This document shows, piece after piece, positions 8,360-59,300 of a stretch of DNA of 64,000 nucleotides. The stretch's first letter is position 1; the number at the start of each line of letters is the position of its first letter. The DNA is taken from assembly GCA_903813345.2 (NCBI GenBank), contig CAIIXF020000007.1, forward strand, positions 23,735,564 through 23,799,563, given 5' to 3'. The notes beneath the pieces are model-generated. The model was not told where the DNA came from. It searched no databases and saw only the letters and a program-made list of their open reading frames with translations. The stretch is from Owenia fusiformis (Eukaryota > Annelida > Polychaeta > Sabellida > Oweniidae). A program made the position numbers and the translations under genes.

Positions 8360-11300
8360 ATGAATCCATTTTACTATATAAGACTAAAGACTTACAAAAA
8401 TACTGAAATGTGGCGAGGATTCTTAACATTCTTCTTTCTGTGCTCAATAGAGGTCTCTGAATCTGAGATATCCTCCACACATGTGCCTTCAATGCCCAAT
8501 CGTACCTTGACAACACAGGATGGTCACTTAACCTGGGTACCAACAAGCAACGGAAGTGTGATAATGTTGGCCAAAAATGTTCAAACAGATACTACCAAGT
8601 CCGTTACTTTCTTGCCACTAATCACCTTCAACAATAGCCACACAAGATATAAAGTGACAAAGAACTATTATAGTACAATGGTAAATATCAAAACACAAAG
8701 TAGAGGACACAACTTTGATGATGTGACATTAAGCTCAAATGGTGTGCCAACAAGAAATGGAAATACAACAATGAATACGGTGACACAAAGTACAACACAT
8801 AATACTAGTGATCTAACACGAAGCTCAAATGCTGTGCCAACAAGAAATGGAAATACAACAATGAATACGGTGACACAAAGTACAACACATAATACTAGTG
8901 ATCTAACATTTAGCTCAAATGCTGTGCCAACAAGAAATGGAAATACAACAATGAATACGGTGACACAAAGTACAACACATAATACTAGTGATCTAACACA
9001 AAGCTCAAATGGTGTGACATCAAGAAATAGAAATACAACAATGAATACGGTGACACAAAGTACAACACATAATACTAGTGATCTAACATTTAGCTCAAAT
9101 GCTGTGCCAACAAGAAATGGAAATACAACAATGAATACGGTGACACAAAGTACAACACATAATACTAGTGATCTAACACAAAGCTCAAATGGTGTGACAT
9201 CAAGAAATAGAAATACAACAATGAATACGGTGACACAAAGTACAACACATAATACTAGTGATCTAACACAAAGCTCAAATGGTGTGACATCAAGAAATAG
9301 AAATACAACAACAATAGATAATGTAAAATATAACAATGGTACAATTAGAAATATGGCAACATCGTACAACAGGAGTACAACTGAATATATGGTAACATAC
9401 AGCAGGAGTACAACTGAATATATGGTAACATACAACAGGAGTACAACTGAATATATGGTAACATATAACAGGAGTACAACTGAATATACTGTCACGCAAA
9501 GTTCAACAGTAAGGAGTTCAAAAGGTGGTGGTGTGATGAAGAAAAGACGGTTCCCATACCCACGTATCAAATTCCCATTGCGAGGATTCTCTAATTTGAA
9601 TACATGTATCAAACTGAACAGGCTCACTGCTCATTGTTGGTGGCCATATAGGGTATGGCCATTTAAAAGCACCCCATTGAAAAAATGCATTGGGATAGGA
9701 TCTCATTCTGTTGCATGTGATGTAACCGCAAACAACAGTAATGGGGTAACTACAGTGAAAACTGTCATAGTTGCACCTCAAGTAATGTTCAAGCCATTCA
9801 AAAACACAACATGTACATATCTAAATAATGCAACCGTTCATTGCACAAAAAGAAAGAAATCCAAATATAAGACATCACTAAACATACCTAGCTACTGGCC
9901 ATTTGATTTTCCAAGACCTCACTCATGTAAATTACTCAATAACTACACTTTGACATGTCATGCACCCATCACAACTTACTTCAACAACTGGCCATTTCCA
10001 TTTCCCGTACCAACTTTCTGCATGGATTTAAACCATGAAACAAAGTTTTGTCCTATTCACTTAAACTCAACAGTGAAAACGGTATTGTTGGATTGGGAGT
10101 TCCCATTTCCTTATTCTCTCCCTTGTATTCTAATGAACAACAATACATATTACTGCAAGGGTATGTCAAGGGGAAAGCTTACAATTGTCTCATTTAAGTG
10201 GCCATTCAGCTTTCAAGCCTCGTTATGCACACTTCAGAATCTCCATAAACATTATTTCTGTTGTCCTCCATTCAACAAAAACCTTAATATGTTTAATCTA
10301 TTGCCTAAGAAAGGCACAGAGGTAACATTTGTTATAGAATTCTGGGTGTCTCTGTTTGTATGTATTATTGGCCTCATGGGTAGCATTCTTTCCTTCATGG
10401 TTCTAAAAATGCGTAAGAACAACTCGAGCGTAGTGTACCTGAAGGCGCTGGCAATTAATGATGGTCTCTCATGCATCTGGTACCTCATATTTGATGCATA
10501 TCTGATTGTTTACAATTATAGCTCATGGATAACTAATCGTGAGAGTAATTCCATACATCAAATCCCACAAGTTGCTTCAACCTGGTTATTTCCTATACGG
10601 TCATCCCTAATTGCTATATCCATCTGGTTGGTTGTCTTTTTGTCATGTGATAGATACCAAATTGTGGCCAGCCCTCTAAAGGCTAAAAGGTGTTGCACTG
10701 TACGTAATGCAATGATTAAAACACTTGTTATCGTTGTCACATGCTTCTTGTGCCATATTCCACAACTGTTTTCTGGAAGAGCTGTCCCATCTGTCAACAG
10801 TTGCACCAATGATATGTGGATAAAACATGAATTCACAGATATGGGTAACTCAGATGCCTTTCAGATTGGGTACATGATAGTTTTTCAGGGGCTCATGAGA
10901 GGTTTTATCCCATTCGTGATAGTTGCAATAATGAATGGGCGAATCATCATGAAAGTTCGGCAAGCGACAAAACGTCGTTTAGACTTGTCAAATACAGATC
11001 CTGACAGAAAAAGTACAGATGACAAACTGATGAGACTCCTCGTAGCAATAGCAATCTTGTTTCTCATTTTGATTTTACCATGGCTTGGCTATATAACATA
11101 CTCAGCCATATTTATTATATTTAAGAATGATGGAAGGCTATTCACCATCTTTCCATTCTTAAAACAAGGAAGGATACCTATAACAATAACAAATGTCCCT
11201 GCAGTCACAAATTCTTCATATTATTTAGCTGCTACAGCAATGCTTTGTATTCGTCTTAATGGAGCGCTAAATTTTTTCGTCTATATATTAGTAAGCAGTG

Positions 11301-50600: not shown

Positions 50601-52218
50601 AGTATATGATATATTCACAAGTGAGCGTAGCGAACGAGTGAATATATCATATTCTCACGAGAGTATAGAATGCACGATATACAAAATGAACCATTATATA
50701 ATCTTATTATGCCACTCTAAGTTCAATTACAGTTGATTCTAACACAATCATAACAACTAAAAATTCATTAGTTCATTATTCATTAGTTCCCAGAATGCAC
50801 TTCTACAGTGGTATACGCTGGAGTGTATACGGAGGAGTTGTATACGATGACGATATACCACTCTCCATTGTATATCGTTGTTATAGACCCATGTTATACA
50901 ACTGCAATTGGACTTAGAGTGGTATAATATGTTGTATATTGTTAGTATGTAATGATTCCAGATACGACCAGTTGGAGATGCCTTCTACAACTCCAACATT
51001 GAGCCATGGAGCAAGTATCTGACAGGAGAACAAGGAAAAGCACCCACACCCCCATATGATCCACTTGAGTTTGTTGTTGAAGAAGGACATAAACGAAACA
51101 TTCAAGTTCATGCTTGGTTTAACCCATACAGGGCAAATATGGCTAGCAATACAGAGGGATTGGCCCCGAATCATATGGCCCACAAGTTTCAGAATTACAC
51201 CTATCCATATGGTAAATACTTATGGATGGATCCTGGTGCCTCTGAAGTCACAGATCACCTGATTAATGTAGTAACTGATGTTCTCAATAGGTATGACATC
51301 GATGGAGTTCATATGGATGATTATTTCTATCCATATCCTGTTAGGAATGTGACATTCCCAGATAATGAAACTTATCAAAACTTTTTGAACACAACTGGAA
51401 GGAATATGACTCTTGAGGACTGGCGTCGCAGGAACATTGATCAGATGGTAGTGAGACTGTTCCATACCATACGCAACAACTATGACAATGTCACATTCTC
51501 GATTAGTCCTTTTGGTATATACAGGCCAGGTCATCCAGAGGGTATGCCAAATTCAATAAAAGGATTTGATCCATACTCCAATCTCTATGCAGATGCTAAG
51601 CGTTGGCTTCAGAGCGGTTGGGTTGATATCCTCATTCCTCAAATCTATTGGGAGATAAAACCACCAGATCAAAGTTATCCCGTTATCCTCGACTGGTGGC
51701 TTAAAGCTTCTAACGAAAGACGTGGCCGTCATGTGTATGCAGGAAATGCATTGTACAAACTAGTTCAGAACAATTGGAATGCCTCAGAAATCCTACAGCA
51801 GATTCAAGTTTCACGAGACGAGGCCACGAGTAAATTAAAAGGCTCATTGGGAAATGTACATTTCTCTTTCAAAAATCTGAAGCACAATCATAAAAACATC
51901 ACTAGTGCTCTAAAAGGTGGACCATACCGTGATATCTGTCTGCCTCCCACGTTGCCACATTTCCCAGACTCAGCACCGGCGCCACCTAGAGGTATCCACA
52001 TGATGACTAATCGTCAAATCATGTGGTCACATGACACGGCTGGCACAGTCAGATCCTGGACAGTTTATCAAAGAAAGGGAAACACATTTGTACTGTATGC
52101 TGTCCTCAACAGAGCTACAAATAGGATAGATGTGAAAGACCCTGGTATATATGCTGTGAAAGCTATGAATAAAATATCTGTTGAGAGTTCTGAAAGTTCT
52201 ATCGAGGTCAAACCATAA
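47640..52218 (+). CDS. Membrane-anchored GHL10 (DUF187) family glycoside hydrolase, 3 exons
   Basis: Exons 47640-47757, 49892-50061 and 50962-52218 join in phase (1545 nt, 514 aa); donors gtattg and gtgagt, acceptors ending cag. Exon 1 encodes a short basic start and a hydrophobic segment (GLIVGAVCCIGLVAGMLIW, about residues 7-25): a type II signal anchor. The GHL10 domain starts at ELRGVWVATVNNIDWP (from residue 49) and continues through FFQ/IRPVGDAFYNS, HAWFNPYRA, DGVHMDDYFYPYP (210-222), FSISPFGIYRPG and ILIPQIYWE (about 319-327). Acidic residues in the last motifs are those expected to line the active site of this TIM-barrel family. A C-terminal region of about 80 residues looks FN3-like. 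Eight N-x-S/T sequons support a lumenal or extracellular location. Bacterial relatives act on peptidoglycan-type glycans; the animal substrate is unknown. All three exons look intact. Confidence 0.93.
48352..48906. mobile_element. Foldback element in GHL10 intron 1
   Basis: atgtcatcgaaaaatttgtt...cagcttgggggag is repeated inverted at 48875-48906, and acttctatttgaagt blocks at about 48470 and 48755 pair as well. A third copy of gctcccccaagctgg is at about 48522. Arms are interrupted by indels. Confidence 0.78.
50296..50480. mobile_element. GGCCCGTAGCCAG-end MITE, copy 3, in GHL10 intron 2
   Basis: Left cttgcccatagccag, right ctggctacgggcctg; 5-bp duplication TGAAA at 50291-50295 and 50481-50485. 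Interior similar to the copy at 42880. Confidence 0.88.
50551..50937. repeat. Two adjacent hairpins in GHL10 intron 2
   Basis: Hairpin 1 (about 50555-50705): aggttatataatggttc pairs with gaaccattatataatct, with loop gtgagcgtagcgaacgagtg. Hairpin 2 (about 50706-50937): attatgccactctaagttca pairs with the complement gacttagagtggtataat. Both are noncoding. Confidence 0.78.
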
Positions 52219-53398: not shown

Positions 53399-56300
53399 TT
53401 AGTATTCAGAGGGATCATCCCTGTAAGTAAATCCAAATGTTGGTAGTGATTCTTCCAATGGTTTTACATGTTCCACATAGTCATAAGCGGTTGCCTTAGC
53501 AACAGGTAGCGGTTGCTTACACATCTTTTGGAGTCGCCTGTAAAACAAAATTGAAAATATGTCGCATAACTGTCAGTTACTAGTTTATAGATGGATGGGT
53601 CTTGTATTAAATGTTCAGTTGCCCAATGTTTTCTTTTAATTCTCTCTCATAAAGGACGAGGGGGGCTAGAAGATACAAGTCTTCAAGTATAAGACTCCTC
53701 AAAGCAAAATATTTCATTCGAAAACTGCATTTTTAATACCCACATGTTTGAAGATATTAGAATTTTACAGGTAGACTCTCCTCAGTAAAATCTGTTAAGG
53801 GTGAATGATACTAAACCTAACCAATTTTGATTAGCGTTTAACAGTTCTTACTCAAAATTGAAAAATGCTAAAGTTAATAAAGGAACTGAATTCAACTGAT
53901 TCATGTTCAGATTTTTTCAAAAGAATTAATTTATATGCTTCAGAAGAGGCTTTAAAAAGACCATATCTTGATTTACCTGATTGCTTGAACTCTGGCTTGA
54001 TTCACGTCAAGATCAAGTAGGCGGGACACTTCATGTAACTTCCTCTGTCCAACTGGACTGAGTGGTAAAGGAGAGGGTGACTAAAATACAGAATATACAA
54101 GGAGCAATAAAAAAAATGGTGAGCCATACATACATACAGGTTGGTCTATTATAAATCAATACATACAGGTTGGTGCACTTTAGAAAAACACAAAGTGGGT
54201 GGTCCACTAGACAGAAATAAACATAGGGTGGTCCACTATAGCAAGAAAAATACATAGAGGGTGGTCCAGTTTAGAACATTACAAACTGGGTGGCCCACTA
54301 GACAACAATACATACATAAATAAGGTGATCTTTTCTTGATTAATACATACAGGACTGTCCACTATAGCCAGAACAATACACATAGGGCGGTCCAGTTTAA
54401 AACAGTGCATACAGAGTGGTTCATTTTCAACACACATATATATATAAAATAACATTAAGATGTTGATACCAAAAGGTATCCATTGGAATATAAACTATGG
54501 AAATATAAATATAAATTTTTGATAGGAAACTATATTAACAAACAGGAAATTTTTGAAAATTCAAACAAGACAAAGATTTTTATACTTCAAAATTCAAATT
54601 CACTGACCTTCCAGTAAGGTCCCCTATCCCCCAGAAGAGGCATCCCAGTCCCCACAAGAGCTTGGGGCATTGGATCAACAGGGGGCAGCACAAGATCCCC
54701 TGGGTAACCTGGTGACCTTGCCATTAACGGTGGACTCCCGGTGTCAACTAAATCAGTCTGTTTGATTGGTTGAATCAATAGCAGGCCAGTTTCACTAACC
54801 ACATCACTAAACCTGAAAACGACAAAAAAAAGAGAATTGAGCAGTCAATCTTGGGTTCTTCGTGATCAAGAGTAAAACTCTAATAAATAACTTGCTTCAT
54901 TGAATGTTATTTTAAAGACTTAAAACTGTTTTAAAGGAAATTCGTTGGCATTTCTGTAACTTTCTTGTTATTCCTTGTATACTTGCTTGAATCTCATAAA
55001 ATTATTACGCTGTCACAATTAGGAAAAAAATTCTTGATTCACACATCTTTACTTACAATTTACACATTCGTTCAAACAAGTGACATCTTTCTTCCTTCAG
55101 TTCTGTCAACCTTTCCTCCCATTTTTTGTTGTTTCTGTGAAGTCTACGATTTATGACGTGGAGGAAGCTACGGAGCTCTGCACTCTGCTGAGGAGGTAAC
55201 TCTGCATTCTTCAGGTTTGTTTGAAGCTTAACTGGAAAGAGTAAAATAAGGTTTCGAGAACTTTTTGAAATTGTTTCATTTTTAGAATTTTTTTAGAAAA
55301 AGTTCGAGAAAAGTGCACTGAAATACCGAAAGCTAATGCACTAAAATATCGAACAGAACAAATTAATAAGAGTACGCTGGTACATCCGGGAACATAGTAA
55401 CGGTGAAATGAAAGTAAAGTAATTTTTTTTTGATTAATGGTTCATTTCGACTAGCTCAAACTAGCTTAAAGCGAAAGAATATCAGAAAACATTTGAAAAT
55501 GAAATAAGACATGAAAAAAGGTAAGCAATTTGCATCAAAATAAGATAAGAAAGGGCGATTTTTAGCAAATTAAATTTTTTTAAAAACATCGATGTTTTGT
55601 TTCAGACATCGATGCATCGCCAGAACCAGCTTTGGCGATGTATCGATTAATCGCGACAACACTAATATGTGGATGTGATATTTACATTCATTACCAGGGA
55701 GATTGACTCATTTTTGCACTTTAAATCTTCAATTACTAAATTTGAGATGGTTAATCCTAAGAAATACCTTTTTCAGCTTTGAACTTCCTAAATGCAATGT
55801 ATCGTTCAAAAAGATGACGTAACTTTAACTCTGGTATAGAAATTGCCTTCTTGATCAAATCAACAGTTAACTGCAACATAAAACATTATATACATGTACA
55901 AGTATATTAAAGATATACAATACATTTACATGTACATTGATAAAGTATATTGTACTTTAATGTTTGGGTCTCTGATAACACATTAAACTGATAAGACTAA
56001 ATTTATTTCGTTTTATGTATGGAAAGTAATAAGCTGTAATTTGTAATCTAATAGAGTGTAAAAATTCATCATTTAAAGGCAGTTGCACACTTTCATGAAG
56101 ACATTTTATTCCAACATAATTTGAACATAACATACATGAACTATGCTACTATATTGTGTAAATTTGCTATTTCTTAATTAATATATGGTACCTGTAATCA
56201 TGCAAATTCTCATCATACCTTGAAAGACCATGTATGGATCACTCGCCCAGTCTTATACAAACCTTTTGATTGAACTCCTAATGCAAATCAAGTCATATTG

Positions 56301-59300
56301 TGTAGCTAACATCAAAAACAATACTGTAAAGATCGTTTGATAATTTGTTTCAGAAACAGTTAGTCATGAAACAGTTACTGGGTGTCTATGGACCCTCTTA
56401 CCCAAATATATTTAAATACATTTTAATAGGACATGTATCTGAATTAATAATAGATCATGTGATATTTAGATATTTTATAACTAACCTCAGGGAAATGATG
56501 CTATATTTTATGACTAACCTCATATAGATCACATGATATTTTATGACTAACCTCATATTGATCATGTTATATTTTATGACTAACCTCATATAGATCATGT
56601 GATATTTTAAGACTGACCTCATATAAATCATGTGATATTTTGTGACTAACCTCATATTGATCATGTTATATTTTATGACTGAACTCATATAGTTCATGTG
56701 ATATTTTATGACTAACCTCATACAGATTGTGTGTTATTTTATGACTAACCTCATATAGATCATGTGATATTTTATGACTAACCTCATATAGGTCATGGGA
56801 TATTTTATGACTAACCTCATATAGATCATGTGATATTTCATGACTGACCTCATATAGATCATGTGATATTCTATGACTAACCTCATACAGATCGTGTGAT
56901 ATTTTGTTCTGAGTGAAAGCCTGCTCTACAACATGAAGGTTCTTTCTCTGGTCCTCCAAGCTCAGCACAAAGTCCCTCTCATTCTCTGCTTTCCTACGCC
57001 GAGCCTCTAATTGCATCTATCAAGCAAGTTAAAACATTTTTAGGGGAATACATTGGTCAACTAAATAGGCGAAAAATGGGTCAACAATTGTTTGATGACA
57101 CTTTAGTTATATCTAATAAACAAGCAGGTCAAGGTCAACAGTGAAAGTGTGATGAACAATGAGGTATACTCTAAAGAACAAACTCATAGGTGAACATTAA
57201 ATTCTATGACGGACCTCTTCATAGTTTCTTTGCATATTAAAATAACATGATGTCCAAGGTCTGTAATGAATTTTTCAGCAGTAAACTAAGAATCAACTAA
57301 ATGTCTTGAAGTACTGATCATCTATGTACAGTATAATAGAAATATATACCTGTGTTACAACAATACGTTGGTCATCCAAAGATCTTGCCATTTCTTTCTT
57401 CATTTGAACAACAGATTTCACAGCCTTGTCTTTCTTCTTGATGAGTCCTGTATAATCCATTTGTAATTGTGCCAGTTGTCGCTCCACCGCACCATATTGC
57501 CCCCACAGGGATTTGTAGCGCACGTTTAAGTCATTGTATTTCTTATTCTGATAAATATAATAGTATAATAGAACTCATATTGTGGAAGGATGCAATATCA
57601 TGGATAGTGGTCAAATGTTGGGAGTTGTTGAAAAACAAAGTTAATCTAATACAAAATGTATATGACAAAGCATTAACAAGGCAATGTGTCACCCCCTGGT
57701 TACAATTACAAAAGTGTAACAATTTGTTACATATGCTGACCATTGATGTTGATGTGGACACACTAGTCACAAACAAGGCATTCACATGCAAAATGTCACA
57801 ACCTGCAATTTGTTACAGAAGCTGAATGGCAACCACCAAACGCTGAACACCAACTGCCGCCCAAAAAAAGTTGGAGACGATAACAATATGTCATCACTTG
57901 CTTGTAGTGGTGACATAAAAACCAGCTTACCTCCATCTTGGTGATATCTTTCAAATCTTGCTCTGTATTAGCCAGCTTTTCTTTAACATTTCTGAGTTTA
58001 TCTATGAGGTCATTGTTCTCTTTCCTCACTCTCGTGACAATCTCCATCTGAGCCTTCAAACACAATCAAATATTTTAGGATTTTTCTTTTCGATTTGTAT
58101 TTCAATGGTGCCATACCTAATTATCCTAATAAATAAAGTTCAGTTGGAATATGTTCTTCTTCCGGGTCATAACTCAAGTACTAGTGGACAAAATCAAATG
58201 ACTAATTTTACCTACCTGTAGATCCTTAGTAGCAAAGCTTTTAGAAAGCTGTTCATCTTTAATCTCTAGACTGTTGTTCATGAGTGTCTGGGACAGTTTA
58301 GACTCCAATGATACCAACACTGAAATACAATGACAACAAAAATAAAATACAATGACATCAGCATTGAAATACAATGACACCAACACTGAAAAACAATGAC
58401 ACCAACAAGACAACACTGAAATACAATGACACCAACACTGAAATACAAGAGCAAGGCCAATCTAAAATATTCTTTTTCAAGTAATTTGAACAAATGATTA
58501 GAATCCATTCCTTTGACTCTTCAAAATCTCAAAAAATTGAAATGACATCATCATAATGTCTGCTATAATTGTATTTGATTTCTATTTTGAAAACTGGCTT
58601 TTAGTCAACCCCACATTAAGATTACATGTGCACATACTTCCATGTAAATAACACACTGACATTAGCCTTCTTGTAAATAACACACTGACATTAGCCTTCT
58701 TGTAAATAACACACTGACATTAGCCTTCTTGTAAATAACACACTGACATTAGCCTTCTTGTAAACAACACACTGACATTAGCCTTCTTGTAAATAACACA
58801 CGGACATTAGCCTTCTTGTAAATAACACACTGACATTAGCCTTCTTGTAAATAACACACTGACATTAGCCTTCTTGTAAATAACACACTGACATTAGCCT
58901 TCTTGTAAATAACACACTGACATTAGCCTTCTTGTAAATAACACACTGACATTAGCCTTCTTGTAAATAACACACTGACATTAGCCTTCTTGTATATAAA
59001 GGTTGAATATTCATGACATTCAAGGTTTAATATTTTAAACAGGTATACATGCAATATGACATGCAAGGTTATCATCAAAAAGTAGATGATAGGTTAAGAA
59101 TTAAAGTGCCCAAGTTGAAAAGGCCAAGGTAAATAAATAATTTAAAAATAAACATCACTGTGCATCTTTTTAACAATACATAAAAAATCTTGCAGCAATG
59201 AATGTTTTACTGGCAAGAAGGCATGTTTTACAATACTTTTTTTAGTCTTACTAGCTTTGTGAGAAATTAAGGAAATAACAGGCTTCATTCCTCATCTTTT

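Follow-up and report, generated by a model that had tools for sequence, protein, structure and literature searches.

The window, that is, the whole stretch of 64,000 nucleotides of the Owenia fusiformis genome analysed here, carries on its minus strand a gene with a FAM186A/B-type domain, one exon of which ends inside a 33-bp tandem array (Table 1). When its exons are joined, residues 150-291 of the product match the Pfam entry PF20865 (FAM186A/B, C-terminal) with 61.4 bits, compared to a curated cut-off of 37. A structure search for solved relatives of the FAM186-domain protein found none (best E 0.3), and a search of the genome for paralogues by Pfam family gave 0 matches, with the control likewise finding nothing. 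Close to this gene lies a 29-bp array of 12.3 copies (window 58643-58999, 98% match). Elsewhere in the window we find a 90-bp array of 6.5 copies (8731-9311, 94% match), whose period is a multiple of three, and a 420-residue open frame on the plus strand (50956-52218) with a Glycosyl hydrolase-like 10 domain (GHL10, E 2.6e-56).

Table 1. Exons of the FAM186-domain gene and units of the 33-bp array over the end of exon D, in window coordinates. Slashes mark splice junctions; Y is T or C.
Feature	Position	Strand	Basis or remark
Coding exon C (NKKYNDLNVRYKS...VVTQ/)	57350..57547	minus	open frame, acceptor and donor
Coding exon D, ending ...EQAFTQNKISHDLYE/ (...KISHDLYE/) at the first donor, then GTTAGT	56882..57016	minus	open frame; FAM186A/B C-terminal Pfam match starts here
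33-bp tandem array, 13.2 copies	56469..56905	minus	TRF, score 650
Unit 0: final 24 nt of exon D and 9 nt of intron, with the putative true donor after 56882	56873..56905	minus	unit slicing; Pfam ranges adjoin at the junction, no insertion
Units 1-5: GAG/GTYAGT donors intact after 56849, 56816, 56783, 56750 and 56717; frame open	56708..56872	minus	
Unit 6: frame open, donor lost (GAG/TTCAGT)	56675..56707	minus	
In-frame TAA of unit 7	56666..56668	minus	
Units 7-12: six more intact GAG/GTYAGT donors, all beyond the in-frame stop	56477..56674	minus	
Coding exon E (LTVDLIKKAISIPELKLRHLFERYIAFRKFKAEK)	55768..55870	minus	acceptor TTGCAG/ directly before 55870; Pfam match continues
Coding exon F, with more of the FAM186A/B C-terminal match	55057..55231	minus	

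A preliminary description of this DNA had reported a 33-bp unit over the end of a coding exon and its donor, repeated 13 times, and both TRF (86% matches, no indels) and the slicing of the array into units agree with it, with GAG/GTYAGT (GAG/GTTAGT or GAG/GTCAGT) intact in 12 of the 13 units. It had also been right that the frame stays open for six units beyond 56882 while five donors are kept and that, exon E beginning at 55870 in the same phase, splicing at units 1-5 would add 11, 22, 33, 44 or 55 residues without a frameshift, as it had been about the loss of the next donor and the stop soon after. The usable part was further said to be bounded, which holds for the readable part, ending at the TAA, but not for the ladder itself, which continues with intact donors through units 7-12. 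The computed pairing of the window donors with U1 (-6.8 kcal/mol for the GTT and -6.6 kcal/mol for the GTC version) is within the values computed for six further donors of this gene (-5.7 to -12.0 kcal/mol), so that the copies look like competent decoys, and the broken donor of unit 6 reaches -2.6 kcal/mol. A DNA search of the genome with the array, which leaves out simple repeats and very common words, gave one other match only (67%, G000:C10) and no second copy in this one assembly. Such a match, a ~30-bp array on the acceptor side of an EGF exon, was judged to be an unrelated AT-rich array and rejected as a relative; being the single one, it also led to the rejection of a dispersed repeat family.

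In regard to where exon D ends, the FAM186A-B_C profile offers a measure. The stretch that ends with exon D reaches on its own, weakly (13.2 bits), profile position 32, the exons after D start at position 36, and three residues cover the three positions in between, so that the join from the first donor fits without any insertion. The score of this join, 61.5 bits, falls to 51.4 when 11 residues are added and likewise to 51.4 with 55, whereas removal of the last 8 residues of exon D lowers it to 44.7. Judged by these profile scores, the first donor is the best-fitting exon end among the forms tested, and one KISHDLYE copy is part of the predicted FAM186 domain. The form lengthened by 55 residues, however, shows two profile stretches, the better of which begins at the last repeat copy, and the profile alone thus cannot tell which of the copies ends the exon.

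Arrays of the same kind were looked for in the rest of the genome. Three AGGTNAGT motifs spaced 14-42 bp gave 827 genome matches versus 614 for the reversed motif, which is a rough control, and matches do not equal independent arrays; single AGGTNAGT motifs were rarer than the reversed form (55,305 vs. 87,842). By period, triple arrays amounted to 398 vs. 67 reversed at 37-42, where a few large arrays fill most of the matches listed, 124 vs. 225 at 30-36, and 30 vs. 88 at 24-28. The 49 donor-motif arrays examined were those listed at periods 24-28 and 30-36 plus some others, the listing holding about 100 of the 398 matches at periods 37-42 and covering the first 14 Mb of C1 for periods 14-23 and 29. 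Left out were a simple repeat at C1:12832068, the matches at C2:3554440, C2:34843849 and C3:4645241, and further copies of the families at C2:6.42-6.44 Mb and C8:35.93 Mb. The 49 are partly dependent (L013 is a sister copy of L014, and L005 and L008 share near-identical flanks), and the irregular period of L011 (29-30) was entered as 29. In the first of these two families, a 32-bp donor-motif array recurs at at least four places within 23 kb (G000:C2:6418497-6441275), a recurrence that looks like the duplication of a larger block.

By eye, and with neither annotation nor a blind control, 25 of the 49 arrays, the window array included, were judged to start at an exon end; the signs used were an open reading frame, an acceptor upstream of it and overlap of the exon with the first unit. 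We make no claim of exon ends being favoured by arrays, or of donors attracting them. Protein support for the exon itself, or for an adjacent one in that gene, was obtained for nine of these 25 exon-seeded arrays. Apart from the window, they comprise L032 (PX), L033 (PP2A B56) and L036 (TMEM120) with Pfam support, L015 (GNPDA), L018 (SMC4), L027 (SRP72) and again L033 with support from solved structures, an RRM protein (L047), and a TCP-1 family chaperonin (L046), recognised through the upstream exon of a gene whose following exon bears the array. For the remainder, 16 arrays, the call is based on open frames, some of which are short (L022, L026 and L053), and one of these 16, L048, gave a weak P450 match below the cut-off (E 0.003). 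In the Pfam searches, nine of the first ten peptides had no match up to E 0.1, including that of GNPDA, later matched by structure, and five of the second ten had none, with a single weak one for L035. The SMC4 peptide, the tenth of the first set, had only two weak Pfam matches below cut-offs (EzrA, RdgC) and was identified by the solved-structure search, whereas the Pfam matches of the SRP72 peptide were all weak, two of the three being TPR. Altogether, comparable donor arrays seem to be present in numerous further genes of the animal.

The next exon could be located in four conserved genes, those of GNPDA, PP2A-B56, SMC4 and SRP72, all of which carry arrays that are out of frame (L015, L018, L027, and L033 with L037-L040). 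In all four, the join from the first donor aligns without gaps to solved relatives. On the other hand, the stretches read hold another 28 AGGTNAGT donors (at least eight for GNPDA, where the array reaches the end of the piece, 4 for PP2A, 13 for SMC4 and 3 for SRP72), and splicing at any of these would leave one or more stop codons in the retained part. By this reading of the frames, only the first of the donors read can give the conserved protein and, provided that the four genes are functional, splicing would have to take the most upstream one of numerous similar donors nearly always.

For the window, we propose that a 33-bp piece straddling the 3′ border of exon D, donor included, was duplicated in tandem and gave rise to a minisatellite within the FAM186A/B-domain gene. 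The first, upstream copy would still set the end of exon D, the later ones would act as intronic decoy donors of similar strength, rarely or never used and with no selected role, and the array would be tolerated since the exon is left whole by its first copy. It appears quite probable that the first donor dominates, the ladder being incidental.

The preliminary description had instead considered a length-tunable linker, in which several of the first six donors would be used and yield helical isoforms longer by multiples of 11 residues, varying between individuals. Besides the unit length (33 = 3 x 11), the frame open through unit 6 and the intact donors 1-5, this possibility is favoured by a prediction from the single sequence of exon D plus four complete extra units and on to one residue short of the unit 5 donor, which gives one helix over residues 2-98 of 99 (mean pLDDT 95.4, pTM 0.54); being uninterrupted, such a helix suggests that the protein could tolerate longer forms. 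In units 0-6, moreover, changes tend to be synonymous (8/14, p = 0.002-0.014 by mutation model, a value made too small by the shared ancestry of the units), compared with 6/18 in units 7-12, the difference between early and late units not being significant (p = 0.28). Another 33-bp ladder, likewise in frame, sits at a likely exon end (L003, G000:C1:5412371-5412880), with 15 units (SPNAHSFDTEV) that are open throughout and 12 intact GAG or AAG/GTGAGT donors. However, in-frame ladders are not enriched among exon-seeded arrays: the period is divisible by three in 4 of 25 (window, L003, L010 and L032), below one third (p = 0.046 one-sided, 0.088 two-sided), as against 10 of 24 among the other arrays (Fisher p = 0.06), or 4/22 vs. 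6/19 within the listed periods (p = 0.47), and of extra donors usable before a stop L010 has none and L032 one. Together with an insert that lands within the FAM186 domain, at a cost of about 10 bits, and with the stops behind all later donors read in the four conserved genes, this leaves the linker unsupported and makes it unlikely. A constitutive coding repeat, in which the unit 5 donor, after 56717, would mark the true end of exon D and the protein would always contain six KISHDLYE-type repeats, draws on the good donor of that unit, on the frame open to unit 6 and on the last repeat copy, which suits the start of the Pfam match too. Nevertheless, the insertion-free continuation of the profile from the first donor and the same loss of bits with 11 or 55 additional residues render it highly improbable.

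The same description had alternatively spoken of a splicing-noise trap, which comes nearer to our reading than the linker does as far as decoys are concerned, but a selected trap is not needed. In 17 exon-seeded arrays, intact donors made up 137 of 189 units, and in 12 others 71 of 111 (p = 0.24), a comparison over 29 of the 49 arrays, with periods of 30-36, every one of which except the window had been found through three neighbouring intact donors, and made with a rough unit finder (14 units, 11 intact, for the window array vs. 13 and 12 by slicing). With intactness so similar in both groups and no significant extra retention at exon ends, there is no sign of decoys being either maintained or purged. 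A stricter version would be a poison-donor device, the six donors beyond the TAA sending mis-spliced transcripts to decay and thereby tuning expression. All six are intact although three of units 7-12 carry stops, and their donor columns hold 0/48 changes vs. 17/144 elsewhere. Over the whole window array, off-consensus cells are likewise fewer at eight donor positions (1/104, position +3 set apart with 3 changes in 13 units) than in the other 24 columns (28/312, p = 0.002, again too small because units of common ancestry do not provide independent cells), which speaks against decoys with no selected role. Yet these counts are small, the units share their ancestry, and such conservation is absent across the arrays tested, where donor columns of exon-seeded arrays are 9.5% deviant vs. 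5.4% for other columns. The selection tests on the window array gave a mixed picture that the wider survey did not reproduce, and the poison-donor device is hardly credible.

Minisatellite-like tandem duplications of exon-intron boundaries are known from lancelets, where they occur in Adh3, the globins BflGb6 and BflGb9 and troponin C (PMC3087553, PMC3902484), with similar repeats in PGBD5 (PMC3902484). The globin paper calls them mirages and describes regular splicing as apparently undisturbed and their length as variable (PMC3087553), and the PGBD5 paper states that those of Adh and troponin C give no aberrant mRNAs (PMC3902484). As in lancelets, the tandem units of the window array straddle a coding-exon edge with its splice site, and the splice signals are kept in copies, 12 of 13 units here and many, not all, in the source. 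Its 33 bp fall in the range of Adh3 mirage units (10-72 bp), whereas globin units measure 150-160 bp according to the same texts. Lancelet mirages were there reported locus by locus, with splicing stated to be normal (by RT-PCR for the globins), while the present array was read as DNA sequence and similar ones are many. Mirages have been described from lancelets; our array lies in a window of 32-36% G+C, in a genome assembled in 12 long contigs. No genome-wide account of mirages, or of any outside lancelets under that name, was found in the partial literature searched. The array is thus best read as a member of a little-known class, that of junction-spanning minisatellites with decoy donors, a kind already known, and arrays such as these suggest that mirages are not peculiar to lancelets.

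A human minisatellite, that of IFI6 (6-16), is said to supply multiple splice donors, as reported by Turri, Cuin and Porter in 1995. Two downstream repeat units of IFI6 serve as donors (PMC4526556). The resemblance lies in tandem units that bear donors at an exon end and thereby give several possible exon ends, and frame and donor sequence at units 1-5 would permit the same multiple use; this precedent speaks against a dominant first donor. The difference is that in IFI6 the downstream units are used in mRNA, whereas the FAM186-gene array has been read in DNA. Tandem 5′ splice sites in general act as alternative sites that give highly similar isoforms (PMC2423196), and there too donors compete at one exon end, but in our case 13 whole units, exon sequence included, have been copied.

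How the spliceosome picks one of several equal donors is usually investigated in engineered constructs. This genome holds a set of naturally occurring series, the exon end having been copied along with its donor, and some of them lie in conserved genes where a working protein would come only from the first donor. Exon-seeded ladders might amount to a widespread natural experiment, with donors that are locally near-identical and differ in their order, and with the most upstream one bound to win in conserved genes, and the two open in-frame ladders (window and L003) might leak graded longer proteins differing between individuals; taken as a whole, this is a speculative and rather doubtful extension.

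A last observation concerns the acceptor side. In the ~30-bp array at the EGF exon mentioned above (L001, 2495-2859, G000:C10; EGF Pfam E 3e-6), ACAG is found in the real copy only; at the same place, the copies detected upstream show ACAC or something close to it and lack AG. Most of these upstream copies would also meet a TGA at once on read-in, a codon lacking in the copy that adjoins the exon. This one locus suggests that acceptor-side copies may need to be dead, whereas donor-side copies may stay intact.
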